A stretch of 64,000 nt of DNA, taken from positions 135,218 to 199,217 of the forward strand of contig MEGH01000005.1 of NCBI GenBank assembly GCA_001725415.1, read 5' to 3'. The notes beneath the pieces are model-generated. The model had not been told where the DNA came from, ran no database searches, and was given only the letters and a program-made list of their open reading frames with translations. Positions within the stretch are counted from its first letter, which is position 1; each line of letters starts with the position of its first letter. This document shows, piece by piece, positions 22,170 through 62,464 of the stretch. Origin of the DNA: Pseudonocardia sp. SCN 73-27. GTDB taxonomy: Bacteria > Actinomycetota > Actinomycetes > Mycobacteriales > Pseudonocardiaceae. A program made the position numbers and the translations under genes.

Positions 22170-22481
22170 CGATCGACCTCTCGGAGGGCACGGCAGGAAA
22201 CGGGAAATCGAAGCCCTACTCTCGGCGGGGCGTCCTGGAATGGTCAAGGCCGCAGGATGGTGGCGCCGGTGCCCCTCTGGGCCCCCTTCCGCACCCGGCG
22301 AGCGCGGTGTTCGATAAACGCCGCAGCGAGGATCGAATCAGCCCCGAGAAAGAGGGGTACCGCTGATACCAGCAGCATGGCGAACATGGTCTGAATTCGC
22401 TGTGGAGAGGCAGACTGACGATTCACCCGGCCGCCGATTGACCACCGAACCCGGGTGGCCGCACTGACCAGGAGCCTTGTG
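22170..22481. promoter_or_regulatory. Divergent promoter region between two amidohydrolase genes
   Basis: These 312 bases hold no convincing gene. The notable element is the 20-bp motif at 22356-22375. The stretch 22310-22440 is less GC-rich than coding DNA, which suits promoters for the leftward operon and the rightward amidohydrolase. Confidence 0.55.
22356..22375 (+). promoter_or_regulatory. Putative operator: GGTAC-N6-TACCAGCAG
   Basis: The site reads GGTACCGCTGATACCAGCAG. Its GGTA and TACC are inverted repeats. It shares GGTAC and TACCAGCAG at the same spacing with 62445-62464, and is similar to the sites at 26406, 26475, 34261 and 34361. It is about 107 bases before the rightward amidohydrolase start. 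Confidence 0.55.
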
Positions 22482-23684
22482 ATGACGAGTCCATTCCCAC
22501 GCCTCATCTCCGCCGACGACCACGTCCTCGAACCAGCCACCCTGTGGACCGACCGGCTACCGAGCCGTTACCGCGGGATCGGTCCACACGTACGCCGCGA
22601 GAAGGTGGCGTTCGACCCGAAGGTCTCGCTCTCGCTGCACGCCGAGGCATCCGCCGACGGGGTGTGGGCGGACGTCTGGCACTTCGAGTCCAAGCGCGAG
22701 CCGCTGATGCTGGTGGGCGCCGCCGTCGGCTACGGACACGACGAGGTCGAGCTGCGGCCGACGACCTTCGACGAGGTTCGCCCCGGCTGCTACATCCCGG
22801 CCGCCCGGCTGGCCGACATGGACATGGCCGGGGTCGAGGCGTCCCTCTGCTTCCCGAACATGGCGCCGACCCGCTTCTGCGGCCAGGGCTTCCTGGAGGC
22901 CCAGGACAGGGAGCTCGGCCTGCTCTGCGTCCGCGCCTACAACGACTACATGATCGACGAATGGTGCGCGGACTCGGGCGGGCGGCTCGTTCCGCTGTGC
23001 ATCATCCCGCTGTGGGACCCGGAGCTGGCAGCGCAGGAGGTGCGGCGGACGGCGTCCCGGGGTAACCGCGCGGTCTGCTTCTCGGAGGCACCGGCACGGC
23101 TCGGCCTACCCTCGATCCACTCCGGTGCCTGGGAACCGTTCTTCCAGGCCTGCGAGGAGACCGGGACCGTCCTGATGATCCACGTGGGCTCGAGCTCCCA
23201 CGTCCCGATGCCCTCGGACGACGCACCGATGGGCGAGTCCAACATTCTGGTCACCCTGAACTCGGTGACCGCGATGGTCGACTGGCTCTTCTCGGGGATC
23301 TTCGTCCGCTACCCGAACCTGAAGATCTGCCTGGCAGAGTGCCAGATCGGCTGGGTGCCCTACATCCTGCAGCGCGCGGACGAGATCTGGGAGATCCACG
23401 GCAACTGGGCCGGCACCCGCGCCCGCGTCCCGGAGCTGCCCAGCACCTACTTCAGGTCGAACGTCTTCGTGACGTTCTTCAGCGACGTCGTCGGCCTGCG
23501 CAACCTCGACGCCATCGGCGCGGACAACGTCCTCGTCGAGACCGACTACCCGCACTCGGACTCGACCTGGCCCTGCAGCCAGCCGCACCTGCAGAAGCAG
23601 GTCGAGCTCGCTGGGATCACCGACCCCGAGATCATCGAGAAGATCGCCCGCGGCAACGCCCGGAAGCTCTTCCAGCTGGACTGA
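22482..23684 (+). CDS. Amidohydrolase family protein, paralogue B
   Basis: A 400-residue amidohydrolase_2-type TIM barrel. It opens MTSPFPRLISADDHVLEPAT, with ADDH at the position of the usual HxH metal site; later landmarks are MIHVGSSSHVPM, AECQIGWVPYILQR and ETDYPHSDSTWPCS. The ATG at 22482 (GTG one codon earlier) follows AGGAG. It is a single-gene unit divergent from the operon headed by paralogue A and ends at a strong hairpin. It is closer in motifs to paralogue D (48762) than to A and C. Confidence 0.85.
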   Translation: MTSPFPRLISADDHVLEPATLWTDRLPSRYRGIGPHVRREKVAFDPKVSLSLHAEASADGVWADVWHFESKREPLMLVGAAVGYGHDEVELRPTTFDEVRPGCYIPAARLADMDMAGVEASLCFPNMAPTRFCGQGFLEAQDRELGLLCVRAYNDYMIDEWCADSGGRLVPLCIIPLWDPELAAQEVRRTASRGNRAVCFSEAPARLGLPSIHSGAWEPFFQACEETGTVLMIHVGSSSHVPMPSDDAPMGESNILVTLNSVTAMVDWLFSGIFVRYPNLKICLAECQIGWVPYILQRADEIWEIHGNWAGTRARVPELPSTYFRSNVFVTFFSDVVGLRNLDAIGADNVLVETDYPHSDSTWPCSQPHLQKQVELAGITDPEIIEKIARGNARKLFQLD

Positions 23685-23685
23685 C

Positions 23686-23735
23686 CCGTAGGCTGCGGTG
23701 CCGTCCGACAGCGTCGGTGGCACCGCAGCCTACGG
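23686..23735. terminator. Hairpin terminator between convergent genes
   Basis: Perfect 17-base arms (23686-23702 and 23719-23735), with further pairing of CCGAC with GTCGG inside the loop. It lies between the stop codons of the amidohydrolase (23684) and the convergent dehydrogenase (23748). Confidence 0.8.
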
Positions 23736-23747
23736 CGTCTCCCGGCC

Positions 23748-24899
23748 CTACAGACCCATCGACTTGGCGATGATGCTCCGCATGATCTCGCTGGTTCCGG
23801 CGTAGATCCGGGTCGCGCGGGCGTCCGCGAACAGCCGCGCGATCGGAGTCTCCAGCATGTAGCCGTACCCCCCGAACAGCTGCAGGCAGCTGTCCAGGCT
23901 CCGCGCCTGCATCTCCGTGCAGAACAGCTTCACGCGCGCGGCGTCGGGCCCGCTCAACCGTCCTTCCAGCAGCTCCGAGACCGCCAGATCGAGCATCGCC
24001 TGCGCCGCCTCGATCTCCGTCGACACGCCGGCGAGGACGAACTTGGTGTTCTGGAACGCGCTCAGCGTCGTTCCGAACGCCGAGCGCCCGCTGGTGTGGT
24101 CGATCGTCAGTGCCAGCGCGGACCGGGCCTGAGCCACCGACCCGACTGCGATGGCGAGCCGCTCCTGCGCCAGGTTGCCGGTGAGGTACTCGAAGGCCCT
24201 CCCAGGCTCGCCCAGCAGGTTGGCCGCAGGAACGCGCACCTCGTCGAAGAACAGCTCGGTCGTGTCCTGGGTCCGGAGCCCGAGTTTCGCCAGCCGGGGG
24301 CCCTTCTCGAACCCGGGCATTCCTGCCTCGACCACGAACAACGACAAGCCGGCCCGACGATCCACCGGATCGGGCGGTGAGGTGCGCGCGACGACGATCA
24401 CCAGGTCCGCATGCTCACCACCGGAGATGAAGGTCTTGGACCCGCTGAGGACGTAGACGTCGCCCTCCGCGACCGCGGTCGTCCGGATGCCGGCGAGATC
24501 GGACCCCGCACCCGGCTCGGTCATGGCGATCGCGGTGTAGAGCACGCCCTCCGCGATGCCGGGCAGCCAGCGCTGCCGCTGCTCTGCGTTCGCGACCGTG
24601 AGGAAGTACGGCAGTACGACGTCGAGGTGGGTCCGCAGCGCGCCGAGGACGACGTTCGCGCGGCCGGTCTCCTCCTGCAGCACGACGTTGTAGCGGTAGT
24701 CCGCGCACCCGGCGCCGCCGTACTCCACCGGGATGTTGATGCCCATCACGCCGAGCTCTCCGAGCTCGCGGAACAGCTGGCGCGGAACGACTCCGACGCG
24801 TTCCCACTCGTCGTAGACGGGCAGGATCGATCGGGTCAGGTAGCTCCGGACCAGCGAGCGGAACTCCTCGTGGTCCGGGCTGAAGAGAACTCGTCGCAA
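23748..24899 (-). CDS. Acyl-CoA dehydrogenase
   Basis: A 383-residue flavoprotein with the full set of family landmarks: INIPVEYGGAGCADYRYNVV, IAMTEPGAGSDLAGIRTTA, SKTFISGGEHADLVIVVAR, LFGGYGYMLETPIARLFADA and RIYAGTSEIMRSIIAKSMGL. The YAGT ending, without Glu before GT, is typical of isovaleryl/long-chain types, where the base sits in another helix. It has its own ATG, and a hairpin separates it from the upstream amidohydrolase gene. It closely resembles the dehydrogenase at 46688. Confidence 0.9.
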   Translation of the reverse strand: MRRVLFSPDHEEFRSLVRSYLTRSILPVYDEWERVGVVPRQLFRELGELGVMGINIPVEYGGAGCADYRYNVVLQEETGRANVVLGALRTHLDVVLPYFLTVANAEQRQRWLPGIAEGVLYTAIAMTEPGAGSDLAGIRTTAVAEGDVYVLSGSKTFISGGEHADLVIVVARTSPPDPVDRRAGLSLFVVEAGMPGFEKGPRLAKLGLRTQDTTELFFDEVRVPAANLLGEPGRAFEYLTGNLAQERLAIAVGSVAQARSALALTIDHTSGRSAFGTTLSAFQNTKFVLAGVSTEIEAAQAMLDLAVSELLEGRLSGPDAARVKLFCTEMQARSLDSCLQLFGGYGYMLETPIARLFADARATRIYAGTSEIMRSIIAKSMGL

Positions 24900-24955
24900 C
24901 CTTCATCTCCTCGGGAGTGATCGGGGCACCCGTCGTGCGGGGTCGACACGCGGAT

Positions 24956-25004: not shown

Positions 25005-26270
25005 TCAGGAGGTGCCACTCTCCGCGTGCGTGGAACTCTTGACCAGCGCGTCGGGCGGTGCCGGGTGCTGGTAGAGATCGGCGGCGTTCTGGTAGCAGAG
25101 CTTGCGGATCGTCTCGACCGGTAGACCCTCGAGCTGCCGGCGGAACGTCTCCTGACTCTGCGGCCACGTGCCGTCGGGGTGCGGGTAGTCGACCTCCACC
25201 ATGACCTTGTCCTCGCCGATGATGTCGAGGGCCCGGAAGCCGGAGGGATCCTCGATCGAGGTGAACCAGAAGTTGCGCCGCAGCAGGTCTACCGGGTCCG
25301 GGTCGCTCGGCGCCCAGTACGTGGTCTCCCGGCGCCGGCGTGAGGCGACGGTGAGACGCTCGATCACCATCGGCACCCACGAGATGCCGGCCTCGGACAA
25401 CACGATCTTGAGGTCCGGGAACCGCATCGTGACCTTGGAGAGCACCCAGTCGACGACGGCCTCGATGCCGTTGATCGGGAACAGCGCGCTCATCGACAGC
25501 GTGGGCGAGTCGGGCGAAGGCTGCGAGATTTTCCCCGACGACCCCACATGCAGGTTGAGGACGGTGCCGGTCTCCTCGCAGGCCTGCAGGAACGGGTCCC
25601 AGTGGCCACCGTGGATGCTCGGGTACCCCAGACCGTGCGGGTTCTCCGAGAAGCTCACCGAGTGAACACCGCGAGCGGCGTTGCGCCGGATCTCCTGCGC
25701 CGCGACGACCGGGTCAACGAGATACGGCAGCTGGCACGGGATGAAGCGCTCCGGGTACGCCCCGCACCACTCCTCGACCATCCAGTCGTTGTAGGCCTGC
25801 ACGCACGCCAGCGCGACGTCCTTGTCCGGCAGCTTGTTCAACGTGGTACCGGCGAAGCCCCACACGATCGAAGGAAAGTTCAGCGACGCCCACACGCCGT
25901 TGAGATCCATGTCCTGCACGCGGGCGTGGATGTCCCACACTCCGCGGCGGTACTGCTCCAGATGCATCGCGGACGCGTGCACCTGCTCGATGGGCCGGCC
26001 CGCAGCACCGTCGATCCCCAGCAGCGGGAAGTGCCGGTCACCGATCTGCCACACCGGGTGCCCGTCGTGCTCCACCATCCTCGGCACGACATCGCGGAAC
26101 CTCGCCGGCACCCGGTCGAAGAGCGTGCTCGGCTCGAAGGCGTGGTCGTCCACCGAGATGACCGGGCACCACACCTCGCGCGGACCCGGATCGGGCAGCA
26201 GCGTCAGAGGACCGGTGAAGTTCGCGTCATCGAATTCGGTCGCTTCGACAACGCTGTCCAGCTCCATCAT
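25005..26270 (-). CDS. Amidohydrolase family protein, paralogue C
   Basis: A 421-residue amidohydrolase_2-type protein, the same length as and very similar to paralogue A (20904), sharing EVWCPVISVDDHAFEPSTLFDRVPA, SIVWGFAGTTLNKLP, NLHVGSSGKISQPSPDSP, SEAGISWVPMVIERL and EVDYPHPDGTWPQS. Again DDH replaces HxH. Two ATGs begin the frame (26268-26270 or one codon later). It diverges from the carboxylic acid reductase across a region holding two putative operators, so amidohydrolase and reductase are probably co-regulated. Confidence 0.86.
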   Translation of the reverse strand: MMELDSVVEATEFDDANFTGPLTLLPDPGPREVWCPVISVDDHAFEPSTLFDRVPARFRDVVPRMVEHDGHPVWQIGDRHFPLLGIDGAAGRPIEQVHASAMHLEQYRRGVWDIHARVQDMDLNGVWASLNFPSIVWGFAGTTLNKLPDKDVALACVQAYNDWMVEEWCGAYPERFIPCQLPYLVDPVVAAQEIRRNAARGVHSVSFSENPHGLGYPSIHGGHWDPFLQACEETGTVLNLHVGSSGKISQPSPDSPTLSMSALFPINGIEAVVDWVLSKVTMRFPDLKIVLSEAGISWVPMVIERLTVASRRRRETTYWAPSDPDPVDLLRRNFWFTSIEDPSGFRALDIIGEDKVMVEVDYPHPDGTWPQSQETFRRQLEGLPVETIRKLCYQNAADLYQHPAPPDALVKSSTHAESGTS

Positions 26271-26405
26271 GAGGCGTGAATCCTTTCCTCTGCCCTGACA
26301 GCGGTGATTGTGATGGGAACGGCACGATCACGCGGCCGAACCGCTCGCAGGCGGGTCAGGGACTCGTATCTGCAAAGTCAACCACGGCCCCCGCACCCGA
26401 ACAAT

Positions 26406-26425
26406 GTCACTGGCATTACCAGTAT
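26406..26425 (+). promoter_or_regulatory. Putative operator, plus-strand copy at 26.4 kb
   Basis: The site reads GTCACTGGCATTACCAGTAT. Inside it ACTGG (26409-26413) and CCAGT (26419-26423) are a perfect inverted repeat. It aligns with 34261-34280 (two differences) and with the other members of the GGTAC-N6-TACCAGCA group. Confidence 0.6.
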
Positions 26426-26474
26426 GCGGACATGCTGGCCGACGCCGTCACACTCGAGCCAGCGCCGAGCGCGG

Positions 26475-26494
26475 ATGCTGGTATCTCTGGTAAC
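26475..26494 (-). promoter_or_regulatory. Putative operator, minus-strand copy at 26.5 kb
   Basis: On the minus strand it reads GTTACCAGAGATACCAGCAT, fitting G(G/T)(T/C)AC-N6-TACCAGCA(T/G). With the plus-strand copy at 26406 it gives one site per direction of this divergent promoter. Confidence 0.55.
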
Positions 26495-26632
26495 AGTATC
26501 GGCCTCACCTTGTTCGCCGGCCGCGCCCGATCATAAGGTCGAGCGAGTCGGTTCACATTCAGAAATTGCCGCGAACAATCGCAGACAATGCGCGTCCATC
26601 TTGGCGGTGCGCGAACGGCAGAGAAAAGATCA

Positions 26633-29600
26633 ATGATGACCTTGGACCCACGAGCACTGCCCGCGTACGCCCGGCGCGTCCTCGATCTCGCCGAAACCGA
26701 TCCGCAGCTACGTGAGCTGATGCCCGACGGCGCGGTCGAGGAAGCCCTGGGCCGGCCGGATCTCTCGTTCGAGCAGGCCCTCGCCACGGTACTCGACACC
26801 TACGCGGAGCGCCCCGCGCTGGGGGAGCGAGGCTACGACATCGCGCTCGGTGACTCCGGGCGCCACGTCCGCGCATGGAACCCCTGGTTCCGGACCATCA
26901 CCTACGGCGAGCTGCACGGGCAGATCACCGGTCTCGCGAGCAGCTGGCGGCACCAGCCGCGCCATCGAGTCGATCCCGGTGACTTCGTCTGCGTGCTCGG
27001 CACCACCAGCATCGACTTCGTGACCATCGACCTCGCCTGCGCGTTCGCCCACGCGGTGAGCGTGCCGTTGCAGGGCACGATGGGCGCTGCCAACCTCGAC
27101 AGGATCCTCCACGACACCACGCCGACGACCGTCGCCGCAACCGTCGCCGAGCTGTCGCTGGCCGCCGAGCTCGTCGCGGCGCACCCGTCGGTCCGGAGCC
27201 TCGTCGTGATCGACAGCGACGAGCGGGTCGACGACGAGCGCGAGGCGATCGAGGCAGCCGCCGAAACGCTGGGCCGGAGCAGGTCGTCAGCCGCCCTGGT
27301 CATGCTGGCCGAGCTGGTCGCCCGTGGCGCTGCCGAACCCTGGACCCCGCTACCGCCCGCCCCTGAGGGCAACGATCGGCTGGCACTGCTCGTTCACTCG
27401 TCCGGGAGCACCGGAACCCCCAAGGGGGCCGTCCTGACCGAGCGCCTCGCCAGGGCACCGTTCAGCCGGGCACCGGTCCCGGTCCCGGTCGTCCGCCTGT
27501 GCTTCGCGCCGATGGCCCACACGGCCGGCCGGGGCTCGCCCTACGGCGCCCTGGCCCACGGCGGAACCGCCTTCTTCACAGCACGCCCCGATCTGTCCAT
27601 GCTGTTCGAGGACATGCGGCTGGTGCGGCCGACCGAGAGCTTCGCCTTCCCTCGAATCCTCGAGATGGTGCATCGGGCCTTCCAGGGCGACGTCACACGC
27701 CGGGTGAACTCCGGCATCGACCCGGCCAAGGCGAGCGCCGACGTCATGGCAGAGATGCGCGACACCTTCCTGGGCGACCGGATATCGCTCCTGACCGTCG
27801 GTGGGGCACCGACCCCGCCGGCGCTCGCCCGCTTCACCGCGGAGTGCCTCCCGGTCGAGATCAGCGATCGCTACGGCTCCACCGAGGTGGGTCAGGTCAC
27901 CGAGAACGGCCGGATCATGCGCCCGCCGATCATCGACTACCGGCTGCGTGACGTGCCGGAGCTCGGCTACCACACCACCGACGAGCCGTATCCCCGCGGG
28001 GAGCTCTGCCTCCGGACTGCGACGGCGATCAGTGGTTACTTCAATCGGCCGGACGCCACCGCCGCCCTCTTCGACGAGGACGGCTACCTGCTCACCGGCG
28101 ACATCATGGAGGAACGCGGCCCGGACCACCTCGTCTACGTCGACCGGCGCCACGACGTCCTCAAACTCTCCCAGGGGGAGTTCGTCGCCGCGGGTGCGCT
28201 CCGGACGGCGTTCGAGGACGGCAGCGACGTCATCCACCAGATCTACCTCTACGGCACGTCCGTCCGGTCGTACCTGGTCGCAGTCGTCGTGCCCGACGCA
28301 GAGGCCGTGCGACGCGTCCTCGGGGAACGGCCCCGGGATGGCGCCTTGAAGGAACTCATCAGGGCCGAGCTGAACGAGGTCGGCGCCACCGCCGGCCTCA
28401 AGGCCTTCGAGATCCCCCGTGACTTCCTCGTCGAGCCGGAGCCCTTCACACACGAGAACGACCTGCTGACCTCGCTGCACAAGCCGAGGCGACCCAACCT
28501 CGAGCGCAAGTACGGCGGCCGTCTCGAAGCGTTGTACGACGAGCTGGAACGTCGTCAACGCGACGAGCTGGACGCGCTGCGTGGCGGCGGGGACAGCCTG
28601 GACGTACTCGAGAAGATCGGCAGGGCGCTGGAGGCGTCGCTCGGTCTCGAGCACGTCGACGTGCACCGGCCCTACGGGTTCACCGAGCTCGGCGGTGACT
28701 CGCTGGGCGCCGTGGCGTTCTCGGAGCTGCTCGAGGATCTGTTCGGCGTCGAGGTCCCGGTGACCACGATTCTCAGCCCGGCGGGCAACCCGGTGCGGTG
28801 GGCGCGGGCGGTCGAGGCGGCCCTGCGCCACGAGGGATCACCAGCGACCTTCAGCGCCGTCCACGGGAGGGGAACGCGCGAGCTGCGCGCGGCGGACCTC
28901 GGTCTGGACGCCTTCCTGGACGCGGACGCCCTCCGGGACACACCCGGGAGCGAGCCTCCTACCGCCCCTCGCACCGTGCTGCTCACCGGAGCGACCGGCT
29001 TCCTCGGCCGGTTCCTCTGTCTGGAGTGGCTCGAGGAACTCGCCGCCACCGGGGGGACACTCGTCGCGCTCGTGCGCGCCGCCGACGAGCCCGCTGCCCG
29101 CAGCCGCCTGGATGCCGCGTTCGCGAGCGACCCGGCCCTGCTGGAGCGGTTCCGGGCACTGGCGCGGGACCGTCTCCGGATCCTCCCAGGAGATGTCGCC
29201 GAACCACGGCTCGGGTTGACCGCACGGGACCACGACCGGCTCGCGGACGAGGTGGACCGGATCGTCCACCCGGCGGCGCTGGTGAACCACGTGCTCGGCT
29301 ACGAGTCTCTCTTCGGCCCCAACGTGGCAGGCACCGCCCAGCTCATCGGACTGGCACTGCACCGGCGGCAGAAGCGGATCGACTTCGTCTCCTCCGCGGC
29401 GGTCCGGCCGTTTCTCGACCGATCCGCCGGCCCGCAGGACGAGTGGCCGTTGTCGCCACAGATCGTGCTCACCGGGCGGTACGGCTCCGGGTACGGCGCG
29501 AGCAAGTGGGCAGCCGAGCTGCTCCTGCACGACGCACACCGGCGGTTCGGCCTACCGGTGGACATCCACCGTGGGTCCATGATGCTCCCGCATCGGCACT

Positions 29601-30160
29601 ACCGCGGACAGATCAACCCAGACGACGTCTTCACCCGTCTGCTCCACAGCGTCATCACGACGGGGCTCGCTCCCCGGTCGTTCTACTTCCCCGGACCGGA
29701 CGGCTCGCGGGCCAGAGCCCACTACGACGGTCTGCCGGTCGACTTCGTCGCCGCGGCGATCGTCCGGCTCGGAGCGCAGGCCCATCGCGACGTCCGCACG
29801 CTCCACGTCTCGAACTTCCATGTCGACGACGGGTACTCCCTCGACATGTTCGTGGACTGGATCGAGCAGGCGGGCTACCCGATCCGCCGCATCGACGACC
29901 ACGGGGAGTGGCTGCGCCTGTTCGAGGAGCGACTGCGGGCGCTTCCCGAGGACGAACGCAACCGGTCGTCGCTCGCCGTCCTCGACTCGCTCCGACGGCC
30001 CGACGACCCGTCGGGCCGCGCGGCGAGGGGCACCAGGTTCCGGGAGGCGCTCGACGCGGTTCCCGGTGGTGGCTTGGCGCCACCGCATCTCACCCGCGAG
30101 TTCCTCGGCAAGTGTCTCGATGACATGCGCCGGCTCGGCCTCCTCCCAGCACCAGCCTGA
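26633..30160 (+). CDS. car: Carboxylic acid reductase (adenylation - carrier - thioester reductase)
   Basis: A 1175-residue multidomain enzyme that reduces free carboxylic acids to aldehydes with ATP and NADPH. The adenylation domain occupies about 1-640, with P-loop HSSGSTGTPKG at 255-265 and the YGSTEVG and LLTGDIMEERG motifs. A carrier domain has GGDSLG with the phosphopantetheine Ser near 690. The C-terminal NADPH domain has TGATGFLG at 785-792 and catalytic Tyr954/Lys958 (YGASK). The length matches known CARs. Two ATGs (26633 and 26636) could start it. It needs a phosphopantetheinyl transferase, not seen here. It leads an operon with an SDR and a hydratase. Confidence 0.93.
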   Translation: MMTLDPRALPAYARRVLDLAETDPQLRELMPDGAVEEALGRPDLSFEQALATVLDTYAERPALGERGYDIALGDSGRHVRAWNPWFRTITYGELHGQITGLASSWRHQPRHRVDPGDFVCVLGTTSIDFVTIDLACAFAHAVSVPLQGTMGAANLDRILHDTTPTTVAATVAELSLAAELVAAHPSVRSLVVIDSDERVDDEREAIEAAAETLGRSRSSAALVMLAELVARGAAEPWTPLPPAPEGNDRLALLVHSSGSTGTPKGAVLTERLARAPFSRAPVPVPVVRLCFAPMAHTAGRGSPYGALAHGGTAFFTARPDLSMLFEDMRLVRPTESFAFPRILEMVHRAFQGDVTRRVNSGIDPAKASADVMAEMRDTFLGDRISLLTVGGAPTPPALARFTAECLPVEISDRYGSTEVGQVTENGRIMRPPIIDYRLRDVPELGYHTTDEPYPRGELCLRTATAISGYFNRPDATAALFDEDGYLLTGDIMEERGPDHLVYVDRRHDVLKLSQGEFVAAGALRTAFEDGSDVIHQIYLYGTSVRSYLVAVVVPDAEAVRRVLGERPRDGALKELIRAELNEVGATAGLKAFEIPRDFLVEPEPFTHENDLLTSLHKPRRPNLERKYGGRLEALYDELERRQRDELDALRGGGDSLDVLEKIGRALEASLGLEHVDVHRPYGFTELGGDSLGAVAFSELLEDLFGVEVPVTTILSPAGNPVRWARAVEAALRHEGSPATFSAVHGRGTRELRAADLGLDAFLDADALRDTPGSEPPTAPRTVLLTGATGFLGRFLCLEWLEELAATGGTLVALVRAADEPAARSRLDAAFASDPALLERFRALARDRLRILPGDVAEPRLGLTARDHDRLADEVDRIVHPAALVNHVLGYESLFGPNVAGTAQLIGLALHRRQKRIDFVSSAAVRPFLDRSAGPQDEWPLSPQIVLTGRYGSGYGASKWAAELLLHDAHRRFGLPVDIHRGSMMLPHRHYRGQINPDDVFTRLLHSVITTGLAPRSFYFPGPDGSRARAHYDGLPVDFVAAAIVRLGAQAHRDVRTLHVSNFHVDDGYSLDMFVDWIEQAGYPIRRIDDHGEWLRLFEERLRALPEDERNRSSLAVLDSLRRPDDPSGRAARGTRFREALDAVPGGGLAPPHLTREFLGKCLDDMRRLGLLPAPA

Positions 30161-32839: not shown

Positions 32840-34099
32840 CTATGCGGGCTTCGGCAGGAACTGGTTGACACTCTCCGGTGCGCACTGCGGCTGGGCGCCC
32901 TCCGGGGTCGTGAACTTCCCGCCCTGGATACTCATCACGAAGTAGCAGATGTTCGCGGTCGGCTTCCCCTGCGTGTAGGTCAGCGGCGCCGTCGAGCCCT
33001 GCAAGGTCTCCCCCTCCAACGCGTACAGGCCCTGCTTGATGCTCGCCGCGGTCACCTCGCCGTTCTTCGGGCCCATCTCGACCGCCCGCTCGAAGAGCTT
33101 CCCGCCGAGGTAGCTGCTGTAGGTGATGCCGCTGTCCTGGTCACCCAGGTCCGGGACGTACTTCGTCAGGAACTCCCGGTAGGCCTTGCCCCCCGGCGTG
33201 CTGGTGTCGAAGAACGGGCCTACGTGACTGACCTGGACCGCGCCGTCGAGGCCTGCGCCGTTCAGCCAGTTCGGCGCGAAGTTGCTCCCGCCCACCACGA
33301 ACTTCGCGGTCACGCCCTGCGAGTTGCAGTTCGCGACGATCCGAAGAGTCGTCGCCGCGGCCGCCCCGATGTTGTAGGACTGCACGCCCTCGGCCTTCAG
33401 CGACTGACACGTGGCCGTGTAGTCGGGCGCGGACCCCGACACCTTGGCCACGACCGGCAGCTCCATGGCGACGACCTGCGCGAGCGACTGCACACTCGCC
33501 ACGGTCTCGGCGCAGATCGGGGACTCGGCGCAGTAGAGGAAGGAGCCCTTGTTCCCCAGCTTCTTCGCCTGGGTCAGCGCCCCGTACTGCAAAGCCGCCG
33601 ACGACGTCCCGACCGGAAAGAACCCGGCGTTCGTGTACATCGACACGCTGCCCGGGAACCCACCCACCACTGGGACCCCGGCGGCTTCCACGTACTTGGC
33701 CCACGACGCGTCGACCACCGAGTTCTCCCCGACGATCGCCACCACCTTCTCCTGCTCGACGAGCTCCTTCGCCGACTGCAGGGACTTCGTCGGGTTCGCA
33801 CCGTCGTCCTTGGTGACCAGCCGGACCTTGTGGCCGGCGATGCCACCGGCGTCGTTGACGGCCTTCGCCCACGCCTCGACGACCTTGGTGCCACCCGACA
33901 GCGACGAGGCACTCGGCCCGCTCACCGAGCCGATGTAGCCGACCACGATCTCGGATCCGGTCGGAGCGCCGGAACCACCGGAGGAACCGGTCCCTCCCGC
34001 CCCGGAGCCGCATCCGGCAAGTACCGCGCCCACGACCGCAGCAAGACAAATGGTGCCTGCTCGCCGCCACATTCTGGTTCCTCGCCAAGTGACGTCCAT
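32840..34099 (-). CDS. ABC transporter substrate-binding lipoprotein, Leu/Ile/Val type
   Basis: A 419-residue periplasmic-binding protein starting at the ATG at 34097-34099, which has GGAGG five bases upstream. A lipobox LAGC follows a hydrophobic stretch (about residues 15-31), then a Gly/Ser-rich tether and the family fold from EIVVGYIGSVSGPSASSL. Four later Cys residues (in CAESPIC, ATC, ANC and QPQC) may form disulfides. It diverges from the fused permease/ATPase gene at 34582 and probably delivers the ligand to that transporter. Confidence 0.9.
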   Translation of the reverse strand: MDVTWRGTRMWRRAGTICLAAVVGAVLAGCGSGAGGTGSSGGSGAPTGSEIVVGYIGSVSGPSASSLSGGTKVVEAWAKAVNDAGGIAGHKVRLVTKDDGANPTKSLQSAKELVEQEKVVAIVGENSVVDASWAKYVEAAGVPVVGGFPGSVSMYTNAGFFPVGTSSAALQYGALTQAKKLGNKGSFLYCAESPICAETVASVQSLAQVVAMELPVVAKVSGSAPDYTATCQSLKAEGVQSYNIGAAAATTLRIVANCNSQGVTAKFVVGGSNFAPNWLNGAGLDGAVQVSHVGPFFDTSTPGGKAYREFLTKYVPDLGDQDSGITYSSYLGGKLFERAVEMGPKNGEVTAASIKQGLYALEGETLQGSTAPLTYTQGKPTANICYFVMSIQGGKFTTPEGAQPQCAPESVNQFLPKPA

Positions 34100-34260
34100 C
34101 GGACCTCCACATCCTGCGCACACGCCTTTGCGTACGCTTGGCCGCCGACCCCACGACAACAGTAATCACGACATGATTACGTGGTCGAATCGCCGCACAC
34201 ACGGGCGCAGCCAGGGACTTGCGTCCGCGCAGTCAACCACGCGCCCTCATCCCGAACAAT

Positions 34261-34280
34261 GTCACTGCCATTACCAGCAT
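34261..34280 (+). promoter_or_regulatory. Putative operator, plus-strand copy at 34.3 kb
   Basis: The site reads GTCACTGCCATTACCAGCAT, differing at two positions from 26406-26425. It keeps TACCAGCAT, the best conserved half of the motif. Confidence 0.6.
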
Positions 34281-34360
34281 TGCGCGCTCCGCAGGCACCG
34301 ACAGGATCCCCCTGGATGCACCCTGAACAGGTCAAACTCCTTCTAGTACGCCACCGATAT

Positions 34361-34380
34361 ATGCTAGTGCTCCACGTAAC
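34361..34380 (-). promoter_or_regulatory. Putative operator, minus-strand copy at 34.4 kb
   Basis: On the minus strand it reads GTTACGTGGAGCACTAGCAT. It keeps GTTAC and most of TACCAGCAT (CACTAGCAT), so it is the weakest copy. It lies within a patch conserved with 26475-26499. Confidence 0.45.
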
Positions 34381-34581
34381 AGCATGGAGGTAACCTTGCC
34401 AATAGCAGGGTCGAACCATACGCTGCGAAAAGCCCGTCGAGCCTGAAATACCGATGCGCGAACTGGCCAACGATGTACCAGTCCTGCTCAATCAAGATCT
34501 CGCAGCGCGATGACCTGCGCGTGAACTCGCCGGGTCACGAGCCGCTCGTGATCGTGGGTCATTTGGTGGTGACGTACTCAC

Positions 34582-37319
<2,738 letters not shown>

Positions 37320-37323
<4 letters not shown>

Positions 37324-42420: not shown

Positions 42421-42446
42421 GTACACTACACCGATCAGTATTGTCG
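42421..42446. promoter_or_regulatory. Putative TetR operator between CoA-transferase and TetR genes
   Basis: An imperfect inverted repeat, ACACTA (42423-42428) and TATTGT (42439-42444, five of six positions complementary), lies 20 bases before the TetR start. The left half shares the word ACACTAC with the palindrome in front of the paralogous TetR gene at 61.4 kb. AAGGAG at 42451-42456 is the TetR ribosome site. Confidence 0.4.
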
Positions 42447-42464
42447 GCGGAAGGAGCACGACAG

Positions 42465-43097
42465 ATGGTTTCCGTCGAGCAGCCGGCCCGGGGCCGAAGG
42501 CGCTCGGTGCAGAAGCGCACCGCGATGCTCGATGCGGCGCAGGAGCTCTTCCTCGCCGACGGCTACGAGCGCACCAGTGTCGACGCGATCGCCGCCCGCG
42601 CGAACGTATCGAAGCGGACCGTGTACGACCACTTCGGCGAGAAGGAGCTCGTCTACACGGCTGTGATGGACCGCGTCTCGGCACGGTTCATGATGACGAT
42701 CAAGGCGGCCATCGAGGAGGAGCTCCCGGAGGGATGCGACCTGCGGCCTGGCCTGCTCGCATTCGTCCGGAGGGTCGCCACGGACACCTTCTCGTCGTCG
42801 GACTACGTGCTGTTCCGGAAGCTGGGCAGCCTCAAGTACGTCGGCGGCCGGGTTCGGGGTACCGCGCGCAACGCCCCGAAGGAGCAGGTCGTGCACCGCA
42901 TGGCGCAGTTCATCGAGGCAGGCATGCTGCGGCCCGGCGATCCCTGGCGGACCGCCGAGCACTTCATCGCACTGACGCACCTGCTCGCCATGGACACCCT
43001 GGACCCCACCGAACCCAGCAGCCAGGCCGAGCTCGACGACATCCTCGTCAACGGCGTGGACGCCTTCCTGCGCGCCTACTCGCCCGACGCTCGCTAG
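42465..43097 (+). CDS. TetR/AcrR family transcriptional regulator
   Basis: A 210-residue repressor with an N-terminal helix-turn-helix (about 17-62): [40 protein letters not shown]. The ligand domain includes [20 protein letters not shown]. The ATG at 42465 follows AAGGAG; the longer frame upstream is a shadow of the opposite gene. It is a clear paralogue of the TetR at 60743 (near-identical helix-turn-helix and [16 protein letters not shown] segment). Its stop codon overlaps the stop of the convergent thiolase gene through a shared CTAG. Confidence 0.9.
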
Positions 43098-50925: not shown

Positions 50926-52053
50926 CTATCCGGATGCGAGATCCAGCCAGTCGGCACGGGCGAAACGCTCGATCGCGTCGGGGTCGGGATCGAACCCGGA
51001 CCCCGGCTGGTCCGAGACGACGAGGAGGCCGTCCCGCAGCTCGAAACGGCCTGGAACCAGGCCGTTGAACCACGGCACGTACTCCCACCACGCCTCACGC
51101 TGGTTCAGAGCGGCGATCAGCTGAGCCGACACGTGGGGGTAGATGTGCGGTAGCAGGACGCCCTCACCCTGCGACACCAGCTCCGCCGTCCGCATCCACT
51201 GGGAGATCCCCCCGACGCGCTCCAGCTCGGCGATGACGTAGGGCACGCCTGCGTCGACGAGCGCCCGGAAGTCCGCCTCCTCGAACAGGGATTCGCCGGT
51301 CGCGATCGGGACCGGGGATCGAACCACCAGCTCGCGGTAGCCGGCGAGGTCGTGATGGCCGATGGGGTCCTCGAGCCACGCGAGACCGAGCGGGGCGAAT
51401 GCCTCGGCGGCCCGCAGCGCGGCGGCCGGATCCCAGTGCTGAAGGGCGTCCACCATCAAGGTCGCATCAGCCGGCAGGGCCGCCTTGACGGCCCCGATCC
51501 GCTCGAGATCCTCCTCGAGGTCCGGCTTCCCGACGATCATCTTGATCGCCTTCACCCCACCGGCGTAGATGGCCTTCGCCTCGGTGACGAGGTCCTCGGG
51601 CGCCGAACCGAGCATCAATCCGGTCTGGTAGGCGCGGACCGTGTCCGACCGCTTCCCGAGGGCCCGGGCGAGGCTCACCCCGCGGCGCCGGCACAGCAGG
51701 TCCTGCACCGCCATCTCCAGGCCGGACGTCGCGAACGCCCCCGCCCCGGACCAGCCGACGAACCCCAGGTGTCCGCGCAGCGAGGTCACCACGGACTCCC
51801 CGTCATGGGGCGTGGTGCCGCGCAGTTGAGGACCGAGGAGCTGCAGGCCCGCCTCGAACAGCACCAGTAGCCGCTCCTGCTGCGCCCAGACCAGGGAGTA
51901 CCCCTGGGCACCGTCCGCGTCGGTCAACCGCACGACGATGACCCCGAGGTCCGCGCGGATCCGCTGGCCGTTGGGCAGCACGACGTCCTTGAGACCGGTC
52001 GGCAGCGCGAGCCGCCGCCCCTCCACACGCTCGATGCGCGATCCTTCACTCAT
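50926..52053 (-). CDS. Mandelate racemase/muconate lactonizing enzyme family protein (enolase superfamily)
   Basis: A 375-residue enolase-superfamily enzyme. Barrel landmarks: AIKMIVGK (near 170, one Lys at the place of the usual KxK), metal-ligand candidates Asp in LMVDALQHWD, Glu in WLEDPIGHHD and Glu in GESLFEE, and His in LPHIYPHVS near the C-terminal end. Members abstract a proton alpha to a carboxylate to give racemisation, cycloisomerisation or dehydration. The ATG overlaps the DUF35 gene stop by one base. It may act on a hydroxy acid released by the neighbouring aldolase-like protein; this is speculation. Confidence 0.85.
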   Translation of the reverse strand: MSEGSRIERVEGRRLALPTGLKDVVLPNGQRIRADLGVIVVRLTDADGAQGYSLVWAQQERLLVLFEAGLQLLGPQLRGTTPHDGESVVTSLRGHLGFVGWSGAGAFATSGLEMAVQDLLCRRRGVSLARALGKRSDTVRAYQTGLMLGSAPEDLVTEAKAIYAGGVKAIKMIVGKPDLEEDLERIGAVKAALPADATLMVDALQHWDPAAALRAAEAFAPLGLAWLEDPIGHHDLAGYRELVVRSPVPIATGESLFEEADFRALVDAGVPYVIAELERVGGISQWMRTAELVSQGEGVLLPHIYPHVSAQLIAALNQREAWWEYVPWFNGLVPGRFELRDGLLVVSDQPGSGFDPDPDAIERFARADWLDLASG

Positions 52054-52493
52054 CAGATCTCCTCACCGCTCCCGACCGACGGCTCCCAGCGCAGGATCGT
52101 CGCGTCCTCACCATGCTGGTCGACGACGGCCTGATAACCGACCCGGACGTGCAGCCCGATCGCCAGCCCCTCGCCGTCGGCAGGACCATTCCAGCCGCCC
52201 GGCATGAACACGTCGTCCTGATCGTCGAGCCGCACGAGCACGACGGTGTAGGGCACCAGGGCCTGTGGTGACGGCGGGCGGTGCGTGACGGTCCAGGACA
52301 CGACCGTCCCGGTGCCCCGCGACTCGGTCCACCGCCACTCCAGCGACCCGCAGTCGTTGCAGATCGCCCGGGACGGCCAGCGCAGCCGACCGCAGTCGGT
52401 GCAGGTCTGCAAGGCGAGCTCGTGTCGGCGCAGTGCCAGCCACCATTCCCTGGAGTCACGATCCATCAGGACCGGAACCTGCTGGTCGCTCAT
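52053..52493 (-). CDS. DUF35 zinc-ribbon/OB-fold protein, partner of the thiolase-like protein
   Basis: A 146-residue protein with a zinc ribbon (Cys31, Cys34, Cys45, Cys48 in CTDCGRLRWP and CNDCGS) followed by an OB-fold (GTVVSWTVTHRPPSP, YTVVLVRLDD). DUF35 proteins form complexes with SCP2-thiolase-like proteins; the Ltp2-DUF35 pair is a steroid side-chain retro-aldolase. Its ATG overlaps the stop of the thiolase-like gene (ATGA), strongly supporting that partnership. Confidence 0.9.
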   Translation of the reverse strand: MSDQQVPVLMDRDSREWWLALRRHELALQTCTDCGRLRWPSRAICNDCGSLEWRWTESRGTGTVVSWTVTHRPPSPQALVPYTVVLVRLDDQDDVFMPGGWNGPADGEGLAIGLHVRVGYQAVVDQHGEDATILRWEPSVGSGEEI

Positions 52494-53668
52494 GCCGCCT
52501 GCCTCAGCACGACCGCCGACGTCGCGCCCGAGAGCATGCCGGGCTGGGAGGTGGCGAGCGCGACCTCCGCTCCCGGCACCTGTCGGGGGCCACAGGCTCC
52601 GCGCAGCTGGTTCACCGCCTCGACGACGTGGTTGAGACCGTGGACGTATCCCTCTGACAGGTGCCCGCCGTGGGTGTTGACCGGCAGCGAACCGCCGAGT
52701 GCCGTCGCGCCGTCCGCCACCATGGCGGCCGCCTCGCCGGGCTTGCAGAAGCCGTAGGCCTCGAGCTGCATGAGGACGAGCGGGGTGAAGGCATCGTAGA
52801 ACTCGGCGACGTCGATCTCCTCCGGGCCGATTCCCGCCGAGGCGTACAGCCGGGGTGCCATCCGTACGGCAGGTGCCACCGACCGGTCGCTCCAGTGGTT
52901 CGAGGTGAGCTGGTACCCGCCGCCGAAGGCGGCACCGCTGATCAGAACCGCCGGCTTCCGGAGGTCCCTGGCCCGCTCCGCCGTGGTGACCACCAGCGCG
53001 ACTGCGCCATCGGTCTCCAGGCAGCAGTCGAACAGCCGCAGCGGATCGGAGATCCAGCGCGAGGCGAGGTAGTCCTCCATCGTCAGTGGTTGCGTCATCA
53101 TCGCCCTGGGGCTCAGCCGGGCGTGTTCACGCTGGGTGATGGCCACCCGGCCGAGATCCTCCGCCGCATAGTCCCAACGGTGCAGGTACGCCCGCGTCTC
53201 CATGGCGAACAGCTGCGGTGGAGTGAGATGGCCGTGCGGGATCCAGTACTGCGCGTCACCCGCCGCTGCGGCCGGCCCCGTGGCGGACCCCATCCGGCCC
53301 TCGGACCGGGAGTTCAGCGCGCGCCAGCAGACCACGCACTCGGCCATGCCCGAAGCGACCGCCATGGCCGCATCGACCAGGGTCCCGACCGAGGCGCTCC
53401 CGCCCCCGAACACGTCACGGACGAACCGGACATCGGCGATGCCGAGGCCCTGGGCCACCTGCGCAGGGTCGACCGAGTCACCGACGCGGTGACAGGCGAC
53501 ACCGTCGACGTCCCGCACCCCGAGCCCGGCGTCGTCGAGCGCCGCCCGGATCGCCCGCAGCGCGAGCGTCTGCGTGCTCACCCCGGAGTCCCGGGAGTAG
53601 TCCGTGTAACCGACACCCACGATCGCGGTCCGGTCGCGCAGGGTCCGCTCGGCGTGCGGCATGACCAC
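52490..53668 (-). CDS. Thiolase-fold protein lacking the nucleophilic cysteine (Ltp2-like, probable aldolase)
   Basis: A 392-residue thiolase-fold protein of the SCP2/lipid-transfer group. Where SCP-x thiolases have NNNCATGS, it reads FGGGSASVG (residues 88-95), so the acylated Cys is replaced by Gly; the C-terminal motif is NTHGGHLSEGYVHG instead of GGLISKGHP. Loss of Cys plus an adjacent DUF35 gene is the pattern of Ltp2-type retro-aldolases, which split beta-hydroxyacyl-CoAs. The start is a GTG at 53666-53668 sharing one base with the upstream stop, or the ATG two codons later. Confidence 0.86.
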   Translation of the reverse strand: MVMPHAERTLRDRTAIVGVGYTDYSRDSGVSTQTLALRAIRAALDDAGLGVRDVDGVACHRVGDSVDPAQVAQGLGIADVRFVRDVFGGGSASVGTLVDAAMAVASGMAECVVCWRALNSRSEGRMGSATGPAAAAGDAQYWIPHGHLTPPQLFAMETRAYLHRWDYAAEDLGRVAITQREHARLSPRAMMTQPLTMEDYLASRWISDPLRLFDCCLETDGAVALVVTTAERARDLRKPAVLISGAAFGGGYQLTSNHWSDRSVAPAVRMAPRLYASAGIGPEEIDVAEFYDAFTPLVLMQLEAYGFCKPGEAAAMVADGATALGGSLPVNTHGGHLSEGYVHGLNHVVEAVNQLRGACGPRQVPGAEVALATSQPGMLSGATSAVVLRQAA

Positions 53669-55931: not shown

Positions 55932-55941
55932 CTCTCTCCGT

Positions 55942-59971: not shown

Positions 59972-59974
59972 ACG

Positions 59975-60733
59975 ATGGACACCTCGGGGATCTCGGCAGT
60001 TGTCACGGGCGGCGCCTCCGGGCTGGGTCTGGCGACGGCCCGGAGGCTGGTGACGTCCGGTGCTCGCGTCGTCCTCCTCGACGTGGAGGGATCGGCGGGG
60101 GCGAAGGCCGCAGCCGACATCGGGGCGGTCTTCGTGCCGGGCGACGTGACCACAGAGGCCGGGGTAGGGCCCGCCCTCGATGCCGCAGAAGAGCTCGGTG
60201 CGCTCCGGGCGGTGGTGCACTGTGCCGGCCGCGGCCTCACGATGCGGGTGCTCGACAAAGAGGGGACGGCGTCGTCGCTCGCGGACTACGCGTCGATCGT
60301 CACGCTCAATCTCGTCGGTTCGTTCAACGTCCTCCGGCTCGCTGCCGAGCGGATCGCGGCGACGGAGCCCGTCGAGGGCGAGCGTGGAGCAATCGTGCTG
60401 ACGGCGTCCGTGGCGGCCTGGGAGGGTCAGATCGGACAGATCCCGTACGCGTCGTCGAAGGCCGGGGTCGTCGGCATGACGCTGGTCGCGGCGCGTGACC
60501 TGGCGTCGCGCCAGATCCGGGTCGCCACGATCGCCCCCGGGCTGTTCGACACTCCCCTGCTCGCTCGGCTGTCGGAGGAGGTCCGCGCGTCGCTCGGACG
60601 CTCGGTCCCGCACCCGAGCAGGCTCGGCAGCCCCGACGAGTACGCGGCGCTCGCCCAGCACATCCTCGAGAACCCGATGATCAACGGCGAGACGATCCGG
60701 TTGGACGGTGCCATCCGGATGGCACCCCGCTAG
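59975..60733 (+). CDS. SDR family dehydrogenase, HSD10-like, close paralogue of 7969-8727
   Basis: A 252-residue short-chain dehydrogenase of the same length as the protein at 7969 and very similar along its length, including [16 protein letters not shown], the identical run from [15 protein letters not shown], and [18 protein letters not shown] at the C-terminus. TGGASGLG and YASSK are intact. It follows the ferredoxin gene by three bases. It probably oxidises a 3-hydroxyacyl-CoA. The paralogue pair implies duplication or separate recruitment of one pathway step. Confidence 0.9.
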   Translation: MDTSGISAVVTGGASGLGLATARRLVTSGARVVLLDVEGSAGAKAAADIGAVFVPGDVTTEAGVGPALDAAEELGALRAVVHCAGRGLTMRVLDKEGTASSLADYASIVTLNLVGSFNVLRLAAERIAATEPVEGERGAIVLTASVAAWEGQIGQIPYASSKAGVVGMTLVAARDLASRQIRVATIAPGLFDTPLLARLSEEVRASLGRSVPHPSRLGSPDEYAALAQHILENPMINGETIRLDGAIRMAPR

Positions 60734-60742
60734 CTCCGACGA

Positions 60743-61351
60743 TCAGGTGTAGGCGCGGAGAAAGGCGTCCACACCGTCCACCAGCATCGCGTCGAGCTCG
60801 GCGTCCGGAGCGGCTGGGTCCAGCGTGTCCATCGCCAGCAGGAGCGTCAGCGCTGTGAAGTGTTCGACGACACGGTGGGGGTCCGCGGGTGCCAGCGCGC
60901 CGTCGGCCATGAACCGGGCGAACCGATGCACGACCAGCTCTTTCGTCGTCGTCCCGGTCTCCCCCCGGCTGCGGGGGAACCGGGGCCACACGCCGCCGAG
61001 CCGACGGAGCGCGGTGTCGGAGGAGGAGAAGGCACCCGCGGCCACCCGCCTGACGAACGCCAGCAACCCGGCGCGCAGGTCGCACCCGTCGGGCAGCTCC
61101 TCCTCGATCGCCGTCTCGACGGTGGCGAAGAAGTCGGCCGAGACCCGGCTCACGACCTCCGCGTAGACGAGCTCCTTATCGCCGAAGTGGTCGTACACGG
61201 TCCGCTTCGAGACCTTCGCACCCGCGGCGATCGCCTCGATGCTCGTCCGCTCGTAACCGTCCGCCAGAAAGAGTTGCTGCGCCGCGTCGAGCATCGCCGC
61301 GCGCTTCTTCGCCGAGCGCCTTCCCCCGTCCGACTGCACCACAGCGCCCAC
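60743..61351 (-). CDS. TetR/AcrR family transcriptional regulator
   Basis: A 202-residue repressor paralogous to the TetR at 42465: helix-turn-helix [20 protein letters not shown] and [20 protein letters not shown], then [23 protein letters not shown]. It ends nine bases from the convergent SDR stop and starts 21 bases from a perfect palindrome shared with the divergent XRE gene. Autorepression and control of the XRE gene are likely. The nearly identical recognition helix ([11 protein letters not shown] versus [11 protein letters not shown]) predicts related operators for the two TetR proteins. Confidence 0.9.
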   Translation of the reverse strand: MGAVVQSDGGRRSAKKRAAMLDAAQQLFLADGYERTSIEAIAAGAKVSKRTVYDHFGDKELVYAEVVSRVSADFFATVETAIEEELPDGCDLRAGLLAFVRRVAAGAFSSSDTALRRLGGVWPRFPRSRGETGTTTKELVVHRFARFMADGALAPADPHRVVEHFTALTLLLAMDTLDPAAPDAELDAMLVDGVDAFLRAYT

Positions 61352-61372
61352 CCTTGCCTGTTCCGGTGATTT

Positions 61373-61397
61373 ACTACACTACCTCGTGTAGTGTAGT
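61373..61397. promoter_or_regulatory. Palindrome (operator) between TetR and XRE genes
   Basis: Ten-base arms, ACTACACTAC (61373-61382) and GTAGTGTAGT (61388-61397), are perfect inverted repeats around five bases. The site sits in the 88-base gap between two divergent regulator genes. It is a strong candidate operator for the adjacent TetR protein; the half-site word ACACTAC recurs before the paralogous TetR gene. Confidence 0.75.
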
Positions 61398-61439
61398 TTG
61401 CGCCATGAGCACCGCTGCTCGAGAAGGAGGGAGCGCGCC

Positions 61440-62435
61440 ATGCCATCCTTGGCGACCACCACCGACATCCCGAACCGTCCGGGCACGCGCAGCCAACCGA
61501 CGGGTGCCCCCGTGTCCGATGCCCCTCGCACGTCCTCACTCGCCGCGGCCGCGTGGCATCCCACGGGCGGGATGCCCGAGTATTCGAGTCGGGCGCACGC
61601 GGCCGAGGAGCACGCCAGACGGGAAGAGCTCGCCGCCTTCCTCCGCGCCCGGCGGGAGTCGCTCCAACCCGAGGATCTCGGCATCCCGAGGCGCGGCCGG
61701 CGAAGGGTCAAAGGCCTGCGCCGACACGAGGTCGCCGACACGGCCTGCGTGAGCGTCACCTGGTACACGTGGCTCGAGCAGGGCCGGGACATCCGCACGA
61801 CCCCGCAGGTCATCGAGGCCCTCGCCCGGGCTCTGCAGCTCGACGACGACGGTCACCGCTACCTGCGCCGTCTCGCCGGCGTCGCGCCCCGCAACCTCGA
61901 CACCGCCTGCCGCCCGATCGCCGACGAAGGCCTTTCGGCCCTCGTCGACACCCTCCTCCCCCATCCGGCCCATCTGATGGAGCCGGTCACGGATCTCGTG
62001 GGGTGGAACCGGGCCTACAGCAGCTTGTTCGTCGATCCCGCAACCCTCGAGCCGCACCAGCGCAACGGTTTGTGGATCCAGGTGATGCATCCCCAGCTGC
62101 GCCGGCGCCTGGACGACTGGGAGGGCGAGACCGAGTTCGCGATTGCGCGGTTCCGCGCCGAGGCCTCCAAGTACCCGGGCGACCACCGGTTCGGGCAGGT
62201 GATCAACGGCCTGAAGGGTGGGAGCGAACTGTTCCGACGAGTCTGGGAACGGCATGAGGTCCAGGGCTTCGCCGCCCGGGTCGAGACCGTCACCCATCCG
62301 GAGGTCGGCCCCGTCCGCGCCCGGTTGGTCCAGCTCCGACCCCTCGATCATCCCCGGTTGCTGCTGATGGTCCACATGCTGGCGGACGAAGAATCACGCG
62401 AGCGGATGAACGAGCTGCTCGCCGACCGGATCTGA
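61440..62435 (+). CDS. XRE family regulator with MmyB-like ligand-binding domain
   Basis: A 331-residue regulator. After a disordered N-terminus, residues about 60-125 form the helix-turn-helix (ELAAFLRARRESLQPEDLGI, GLRRHEVADTACVSVTWYTWLEQGRDI). The rest is a MmyB-type PAS-like domain (PVTDLVGWNRAYSSLFVDP, RRRLDDWEGETEFAIARFRAEA), which in relatives binds fatty-acid-like ligands. The usual family has RReEVA-x-LAGVS; here DTACVS. I start at the ATG at 61440 because GGAGGG lies ahead of it. It probably senses a pathway acid or acyl compound. Confidence 0.87.
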   Translation: MPSLATTTDIPNRPGTRSQPTGAPVSDAPRTSSLAAAAWHPTGGMPEYSSRAHAAEEHARREELAAFLRARRESLQPEDLGIPRRGRRRVKGLRRHEVADTACVSVTWYTWLEQGRDIRTTPQVIEALARALQLDDDGHRYLRRLAGVAPRNLDTACRPIADEGLSALVDTLLPHPAHLMEPVTDLVGWNRAYSSLFVDPATLEPHQRNGLWIQVMHPQLRRRLDDWEGETEFAIARFRAEASKYPGDHRFGQVINGLKGGSELFRRVWERHEVQGFAARVETVTHPEVGPVRARLVQLRPLDHPRLLLMVHMLADEESRERMNELLADRI

Positions 62436-62444
62436 GATCGCGGT

Positions 62445-62464
62445 GGTACTGGCTGTACCAGCAG
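62445..62464 (+). promoter_or_regulatory. Putative operator: GGTAC-N6-TACCAGCAG
   Basis: The site reads GGTACTGGCTGTACCAGCAG. TGGTAC (62444-62449) and GTACCA (62455-62460) are perfect inverted repeats. It lies ten bases after the XRE stop and about 100 before the decayed SnoaL-like gene. It shares both halves of the motif with 22356-22375. Confidence 0.55.

Follow-up and report, generated by a model that had tools for sequence, protein, structure and literature searches.

Putative operators of an MmyB/MltR-type XRE regulator in a catabolic gene cluster of Pseudonocardia sp. SCN 73-27

Which regulator reads a short sequence that recurs between the genes of a catabolic cluster is a question raised by a 64,000-nucleotide stretch of the Pseudonocardia sp. 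SCN 73-27 genome (MEGH01000005.1, positions 135,218 to 199,217; hereafter the window), which lies on contig C5 of a 6.95-Mb, high-GC genome. Domain searches place in this cluster amidohydrolases, acyl-CoA dehydrogenases, enoyl-CoA hydratases, carboxylic acid reductase and CoA transferases, plus luciferase-like monooxygenases, thiolase-like proteins and uptake systems. An earlier note had reported six copies of a motif in four intergenic regions and proposed that they mark the regulon of a dimeric regulator, naming the cluster's MmyB-like XRE protein and two TetR proteins as candidates. The sequence analysis described here suggests that the six sites are very likely operators of the cluster's own MmyB/MltR-type XRE protein (61398-62435), which would thereby control a small, local catabolic regulon. 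The observations behind this proposal are a dyad common to the sites, their intergenic placement, their confinement to the cluster and their agreement with the sequence most enriched before MLTR-family genes.

A dyad common to six intergenic sites

All six copies are present where the earlier note had located them, and each is non-coding, within one of four gaps. The 20-bp pattern offered at the time is exact in four of the six, with one mismatch in the copy at 26406 and two in that at 34361, and the inverted repeats it mentioned can be restated across the whole set, since the aligned sites suggest a 25-bp odd dyad, ATGCTGGTA-N7-TACCAGCAT, with the core TGGTA-N7-TACCA. This reading moves the bounds of the putative operators to 22351-22375 (s1), 26401-26425 (s2), 26475-26499 (s3), 34256-34280 (s4), 34361-34385 (s5) and 62440-62464 (s6). 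A direct-repeat reading with a 9-bp period was rejected; its units share just a YAC/TAC start across sites, and the dyad is preferred because TGKYA/TACCA is common to nearly all of them.

Site s1 (minus strand) lies between two divergent amidohydrolase genes identified with Pfam, its putative target at 20904-22247 (minus strand, Amidohydro_2) and a possible second target at 22455-23684 (plus strand). In the next gap, s2 (minus strand) points its CTGGTA half at its putative target, the minus-strand amidohydrolase gene 25005-26270 (Pfam), and s3 (plus strand) points its own at the plus-strand gene for carboxylic acid reductase (26588-30160; Pfam, and NCBIfam NF041592 above its cut-off), the putative target of s3. 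The same arrangement recurs at s4 (minus strand), whose CTGGTA half faces the minus-strand gene for a periplasmic binding protein (32840-34159; Peripla_BP_6, Pfam), and at s5 (plus strand), the weakest site, which faces the plus-strand gene for a fused ABC permease and ATPase of the branched-chain amino-acid type (34582-37323; domain searches); these genes are the putative targets of s4 and s5. Two of the three divergent gaps therefore carry two sites and the third carries one. The remaining site, s6 (minus strand), is 3' of the XRE gene and ~98 bp before ATG 62562 of a short SnoaL-like open reading frame (ORF; 62559-62777, plus strand), and it scores on both strands, higher on the minus strand. 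By our reading, the sites lie ~100 to 200 bp upstream of likely start codons.

Only 12.7% of the window is non-coding according to our gene list, and the placement of all six sites in this fraction has p ~4e-6 if the sites are independent. Sites s2 and s4 (26406 and 34261 in the earlier numbering) are not, because alignment of the upstream regions puts both within a duplicated promoter of ~110 bp, so five independent occurrences were counted. By our count, 28 of 30 columns of this duplication are kept from the operator's edge and 55 of the next 82. The duplicated promoter or leader (26271-26440 before the amidohydrolase gene, 34160-34295 before the binding-protein gene) also keeps GTGGTTGACT and AGTCCCTG. 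Besides the s2/s4 pair, blastn found no similarity among the four gaps at E 0.01, so the other sites were not carried by duplication.

The 20-bp pattern with up to three mismatches matches the window 39 times, where 14.35 matches are expected and none of 100 shuffles came to 39; this loose form therefore also catches chance matches. The dyad form TGNTA-N7-TACCAGNA with up to two mismatches gives 11 rows in the window, eight of which are the six sites, all non-coding, and three of which are coding. With up to one mismatch the dyad occurs genome-wide in 21 rows at 20 distinct places. Five of these places are noted sites and one, C15:20820, precedes a further MLTR gene; because the pattern was drawn from window sites, there is some circularity in the count. 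Genome-wide over-representation of the dyad was not found, a reversed control pattern giving more matches. A sequence model built from the six window sites (R2; 150 of 573 first-look genome candidates were scored) recovered the six sites alone from the whole 6.95 Mb when E up to 10 was allowed; all are intergenic, and the regulon therefore seems local. The motif is thus not as common inside unrelated genes, and the computation supports the earlier proposal of a regulon under a dimeric regulator.

Two promoter-like matches accompany the sites, at 26552-26579 (downstream of s3; 0.1 expected) and 34569-34598 (downstream of s5; 0.2 expected). Terminator-like matches number two against 1.3 expected, one of them formed by the s1 dyad itself.

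The dyad before MLTR genes of other genomes

The upstream regions of 109 MLTR (PF17765) genes of other genomes, comprising 29 loci and 80 stretches from a longer list, were searched for enriched dyads in 460 bp that span the beginning of the conserved domain and the DNA preceding it. Every 5-mer inverted repeat with a spacer of 0-13 was counted, with one mismatch allowed, and compared with 20 shuffles. TGGTA-N7-TACCA, the core of the window dyad, ranked first upstream (19/109 genes versus 0.35 expected; coding control, 1/109), and CTGGT-N9-ACCAG, which is the same site, ranked second (27/109 versus 1.4 expected; coding control, 0/109). When at least 10 of the 12 bases of CTGGTA-N7-TACCAG were required, a site was found upstream of 35 of the 109 genes, in 4/109 coding controls and in 0/109 downstream regions (the last being shorter, with a mean of 291 bp); from the rate at which CTGGTA-N7-TACCAG occurs in 80 amidohydrolase loci (1.47 Mb), 1.1 upstream matches are expected. 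Grouped by the similarity of their flanks, these 35 foreign sites make 15 clusters with up to 12 members; 33 of the sites begin 32 to 139 bp ahead of the conserved domain, the other two at ~200 bp. Genes whose product has the WYT helix class, as in the window XRE protein, carry a site more often (21/50) than the rest (14/59).

A second set of 30 genes from another family behaves similarly at the same threshold, with sites upstream of 9/30 and in 0/30 coding and 0/30 downstream regions; one gene, not among the nine, overlaps with the first set, and two pairs among the nine have identical sites. In this set the TGGTA-N7 repeat ranks tenth (7/30 versus 0.1 expected), and we suppose that the higher ranks reflect near-identical orthologues with whole flanks in common. 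In addition, among 100 genomes of the family, an MLTR gene was present at 4 of the 29 loci listed (one per genome) for the exact dyad with a 7-bp spacer, versus 0/22 for a 6-bp spacer.

Among the foreign sites, 28 of the 35 were viewed for further features of the family promoters. These are an A/G-rich stretch resembling AAGAG, 11-15 bp ahead of CTGGTA; an element near -40 that might serve as a -10 box for the opposite strand; and a -10-like xATnCT directly before the CTGGTA half, which could belong either to a promoter or to the dyad itself.

A model trained on the 35 foreign sites only, with nothing from this genome (R1), was then available for an independent look at the window. Its scan of the genome gave 10 matches, with C15:20820 first (E 0.12), s6 second (0.20) and s1 third (0.47); of ranks 4-10, five of seven are inside long ORFs with coding-type base use and two are unassigned. 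Within the window, an unfiltered R1 search gave 23 rows, with s6 in rows 1 and 3 (both strands), s1 in row 2, s4 in row 4, s2 in row 5 and s3 in row 9; the E-values are 0.0018 for s6, 0.0043 for s1 and a marginal 0.22 for s4. The family model therefore vouches for s6 and s1, and s2 to s5 join them through the mutual likeness captured by R2.

Candidate regulators of the six sites

The XRE gene (61398-62435, plus strand; likely start at ATG 61440 or later) encodes a protein with an N-terminal XRE-type helix-turn-helix (HTH_31, E 1.2e-12; recognition stretch SVTWYTWLEQG) and a C-terminal MLTR_LBD domain (PF17765, 125.4 bits versus a cut-off of 26.3), both assigned with Pfam; NCBIfam held no model for it at E 0.001. 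A plain sequence search of the PDB with this protein gave zero matches and a profile search gave just three other helix-turn-helix proteins. Its AlphaFold model (mean pLDDT 83.8) matches the MltR structure 3pxp, a fold of helix-turn-helix and PAS-like domain (E 4e-12, 17% identity), the sole structure entry with E up to 0.001. Among the regulators named earlier, the MmyB-like XRE protein is supported, both by the first rank of the family dyad and by the second and third ranks that R1 gives to s6 and s1, and the two TetR proteins are contradicted, for reasons given below.

Conservation in relatives was also considered. In Mycolicibacterium stellerae a syntenic cluster retains much of the gene content, mostly at 63-83% identity, with one enzyme at 48%, and includes a gene for an XRE protein of 42% identity, placed between thiolase and amidohydrolase genes. 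When the M. stellerae XRE protein was used as the query against 301 genomes of the family of genome G128, none of the matches listed exceeded 42% identity. R1 returned one match on seven amidohydrolase loci, inside the M. stellerae XRE gene, which was taken as chance. Five other species with amidohydrolases of 62-64% identity (L062-L065, L067) had no MLTR gene at E 1e-8 in the stretches examined.

Several observations weigh against assigning the six sites to the cluster's XRE protein. The sites retain a 9-bp direct-repeat look that could be used by a non-dyad binder, and the stretch directly upstream of the XRE gene showed no dyad site. The only nearby dyad in M. stellerae, CTGGTA-N9-TACCTG in the gap that separates the 3' end of its XRE gene from an amidohydrolase gene, has a spacer of 9 instead of 7 and is reported by neither R1 nor R2, so it is no more than suggestive, and the conservation upstream of orthologous operons that the earlier note had named as a test is weak: a similar dyad exists, at another spacing and unscored by the models. 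In the family data, 74 of the 109 MLTR genes lack a site at 10/12, and three of the four MLTR loci with the exact 7-bp-spacer dyad look homologous. Many GC-rich repeats also beat the shuffles, and the majority of those listed turn up again among the coding controls, so weight was placed on rank and the coding control and not on a p-value. By raw counts on the first 29 loci alone, the TGGTA-N7 repeat was not outstanding (4/29 upstream versus 1/58 control) in a ranking made up mostly of GC-rich repeats, and the larger set with an expectation for each repeat was then used. As for R1, all of its genome-wide E-values exceed 0.1, so the genome result rests on rank; in the window, E is above 1 from row 5 onward, which leaves s2 (1.1) and s3 (4.5) at noise level, and s5 is not among the rows. 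Finally, the genome contains other MLTR genes, on contigs C15 and C46, so the sites could belong to the C15 paralogue or be subject to cross-talk.

The strongest rival explanation follows from this last point, namely that the sites belong to another MLTR protein, chiefly C15:21177, or are shared among MLTR proteins. The C15 gene has the genome's top R1 site, C15:20820, ~33 bp before its likely GTG start, with core half-sites identical to those of the window; a minus-strand ORF would cover this site if it ran from its first possible start, so the site may not be strictly intergenic. No site at 10/12 was found in 6 kb of C46, which has one full and two partial MLTR domain matches. However, all six sites lie within ~40 kb of the cluster's XRE gene and R2 finds none elsewhere, and the window XRE protein belongs to the WYT helix class, in which the site is more frequent, whereas the C15 protein (LAGISVDYVVRLEQG) does not. 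Ownership by an MLTR protein encoded elsewhere is therefore judged unlikely.

It is considerably less probable still that the likeness of the sites reflects promoter duplication or chance, without regulatory meaning. This explanation would account for the duplicated stretch that holds s2 and s4, for the ~14 chance matches expected of the loose pattern and for the failure of R1 to score s2, s3 and s5 with any weight, but not for the dissimilarity of the other gaps by blastn or for the match of s1 and s6 to a sequence learned from other genomes.

The two TetR genes have a dyad of their own. TetR 1 (60743-61351, minus strand) is divergent from the XRE gene, and TetR 2 (42435-43097, plus strand) is 66-67% identical to it; the pair is one duplicated regulator at two places of a single catabolic cluster. 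A putative TetR operator, ACTACACTAC-N5-GTAGTGTAGT, occupies 61373-61397, between the divergent TetR 1 and XRE genes, and an imperfect copy (12/14) is at the start of TetR 2 (42425-42444); written as ACTACAC-N6-GTGTAGT, this dyad is exact at the first place and imperfect at the second, is found nowhere else in the window at 12/14, and is absent from all of s1 to s6. By eye, five of seven close TetR homologues viewed have a clear version of it (for example, ACTACACCGTGCAGTGTGG), one a degenerate version and one none. TetR proteins in general bind dyads, and both genes lie inside the cluster, but the claim that either protein binds the six sites is scarcely credible and was rejected, given that the CTGGTA-type motif is upstream of 0/29 TetR 1 and 1/29 TetR 2 homologues (1 of 38 distinct loci together, versus 35/109 for MLTR genes; Fisher p 1.2e-4) and that both TetR genes carry the different dyad instead.

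A possible circuit and its relation to known regulators

Some features of the surrounding DNA deserve mention in their own right. In the SnoaL-like ORF 3' of s6, an in-frame TGA cuts the domain short, which points to a broken gene or a sequence error. Domain searches place the thiolase-like protein 52053-53668 next to a ChsH2-type OB-fold protein, a pairing that we take to be that of steroid side-chain retro-aldolases. Between s5 and the start of the ABC transporter gene, 34535-34551 is a near-perfect self-complementary stretch (94% over 17 bp), and a search of the window for RNA elements gave zero Rfam matches at gathering scores.

Operators of the lambda cI/Cro type are 17-bp odd dyads bound by a dimer of helix-turn-helix proteins. 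The core of the window dyad is likewise a 17-bp odd dyad, of other sequence, and the lambda proteins differ from the window XRE protein in having no small-molecule sensing domain. By analogy, an XRE dimer would read two CTGGTA-type half-sites about one helix turn apart, in the fashion of lambda repressor, and the C-terminal PAS-like domain would sense a small molecule, which may be a pathway intermediate of acid or acyl type. Ligand sensing of this kind would set the joint expression of the uptake genes, the amidohydrolases and the carboxylic acid reductase. That this particular protein binds the sites, that it is dimeric and that it responds to a ligand are all predictions from sequence. The presence of the TetR dyad in the gap common to TetR 1 and the XRE gene suggests that TetR 1 may control the XRE gene and so sit above it in a two-step circuit.

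Comparison with characterized members of the family is consistent with parts of this scheme. In the sections of PMC3406030 that cover the family, MltR of Chloroflexus aurantiacus (3pxp), which has the helix-turn-helix and PAS-like ligand domain of the window XRE protein at 17% identity, is described as a dimer whose recognition helices are spaced by one turn of DNA and as containing bound myristate of ambiguous meaning. The same sections describe MmyB, the family namesake from the Streptomyces coelicolor plasmid SCP1, as an activator, with pseudo-palindromic B-boxes suggested as its targets. The likeness of these B-boxes to the window dyad is one of description and not of sequence letters, and MmyB switches on an antibiotic cluster, whereas the putative targets of the window XRE protein are catabolic and uptake genes. 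The sign of regulation could go either way: the closeness of family sites to their own genes would suit autorepression, and the promoter-like matches downstream of s3 and s5, together with the description of MmyB as an activator, would suit activation.

Gene arrangement differs as well. According to the same parts of PMC3406030, 15 of 16 family members in S. coelicolor have a divergent target gene with which they share the upstream region, and MmyB-type genes of S. coelicolor and Saccharopolyspora are divergent to SDR/MDR genes, so that regulator and putative target use one upstream region. The divergent neighbor of the window XRE gene is TetR 1, with an SDR gene (59975-60733) one gene beyond, and, unlike in those pairs, its putative sites are in four separate gaps up to ~40 kb away, with none at its own gene. 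The portions of PMC3406030 that cover the family did not yield the letters of an operator, nor did those consulted of PMC12565409 (on XRE regulator motifs), PMC7532634 and PMC10717218 yield a site for an MLTR-type regulator; no family operator sequence was found in the open-access literature covered.

MmyB-type regulators are numerous in actinobacteria and have been proposed as beacons for antibiotic clusters (PMC3406030, sections on the family). From the analysis presented here, it seems rather probable that much of the MmyB/MltR family in actinobacteria shares the operator CTGGTA-N7-TACCAG whatever its targets, so that the regulons of a great many uncharacterized members, those in antibiotic clusters included, would be readable from genome sequence, and that in Pseudonocardia sp. 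SCN 73-27 the family has been recruited for a dispersed catabolic regulon under a TetR protein. If the assignment of the six sites is correct, the amidohydrolase, reductase and uptake genes of the cluster would form one co-regulated unit. A common operator, if true, would also let the targets of orphan MmyB-type members be predicted.

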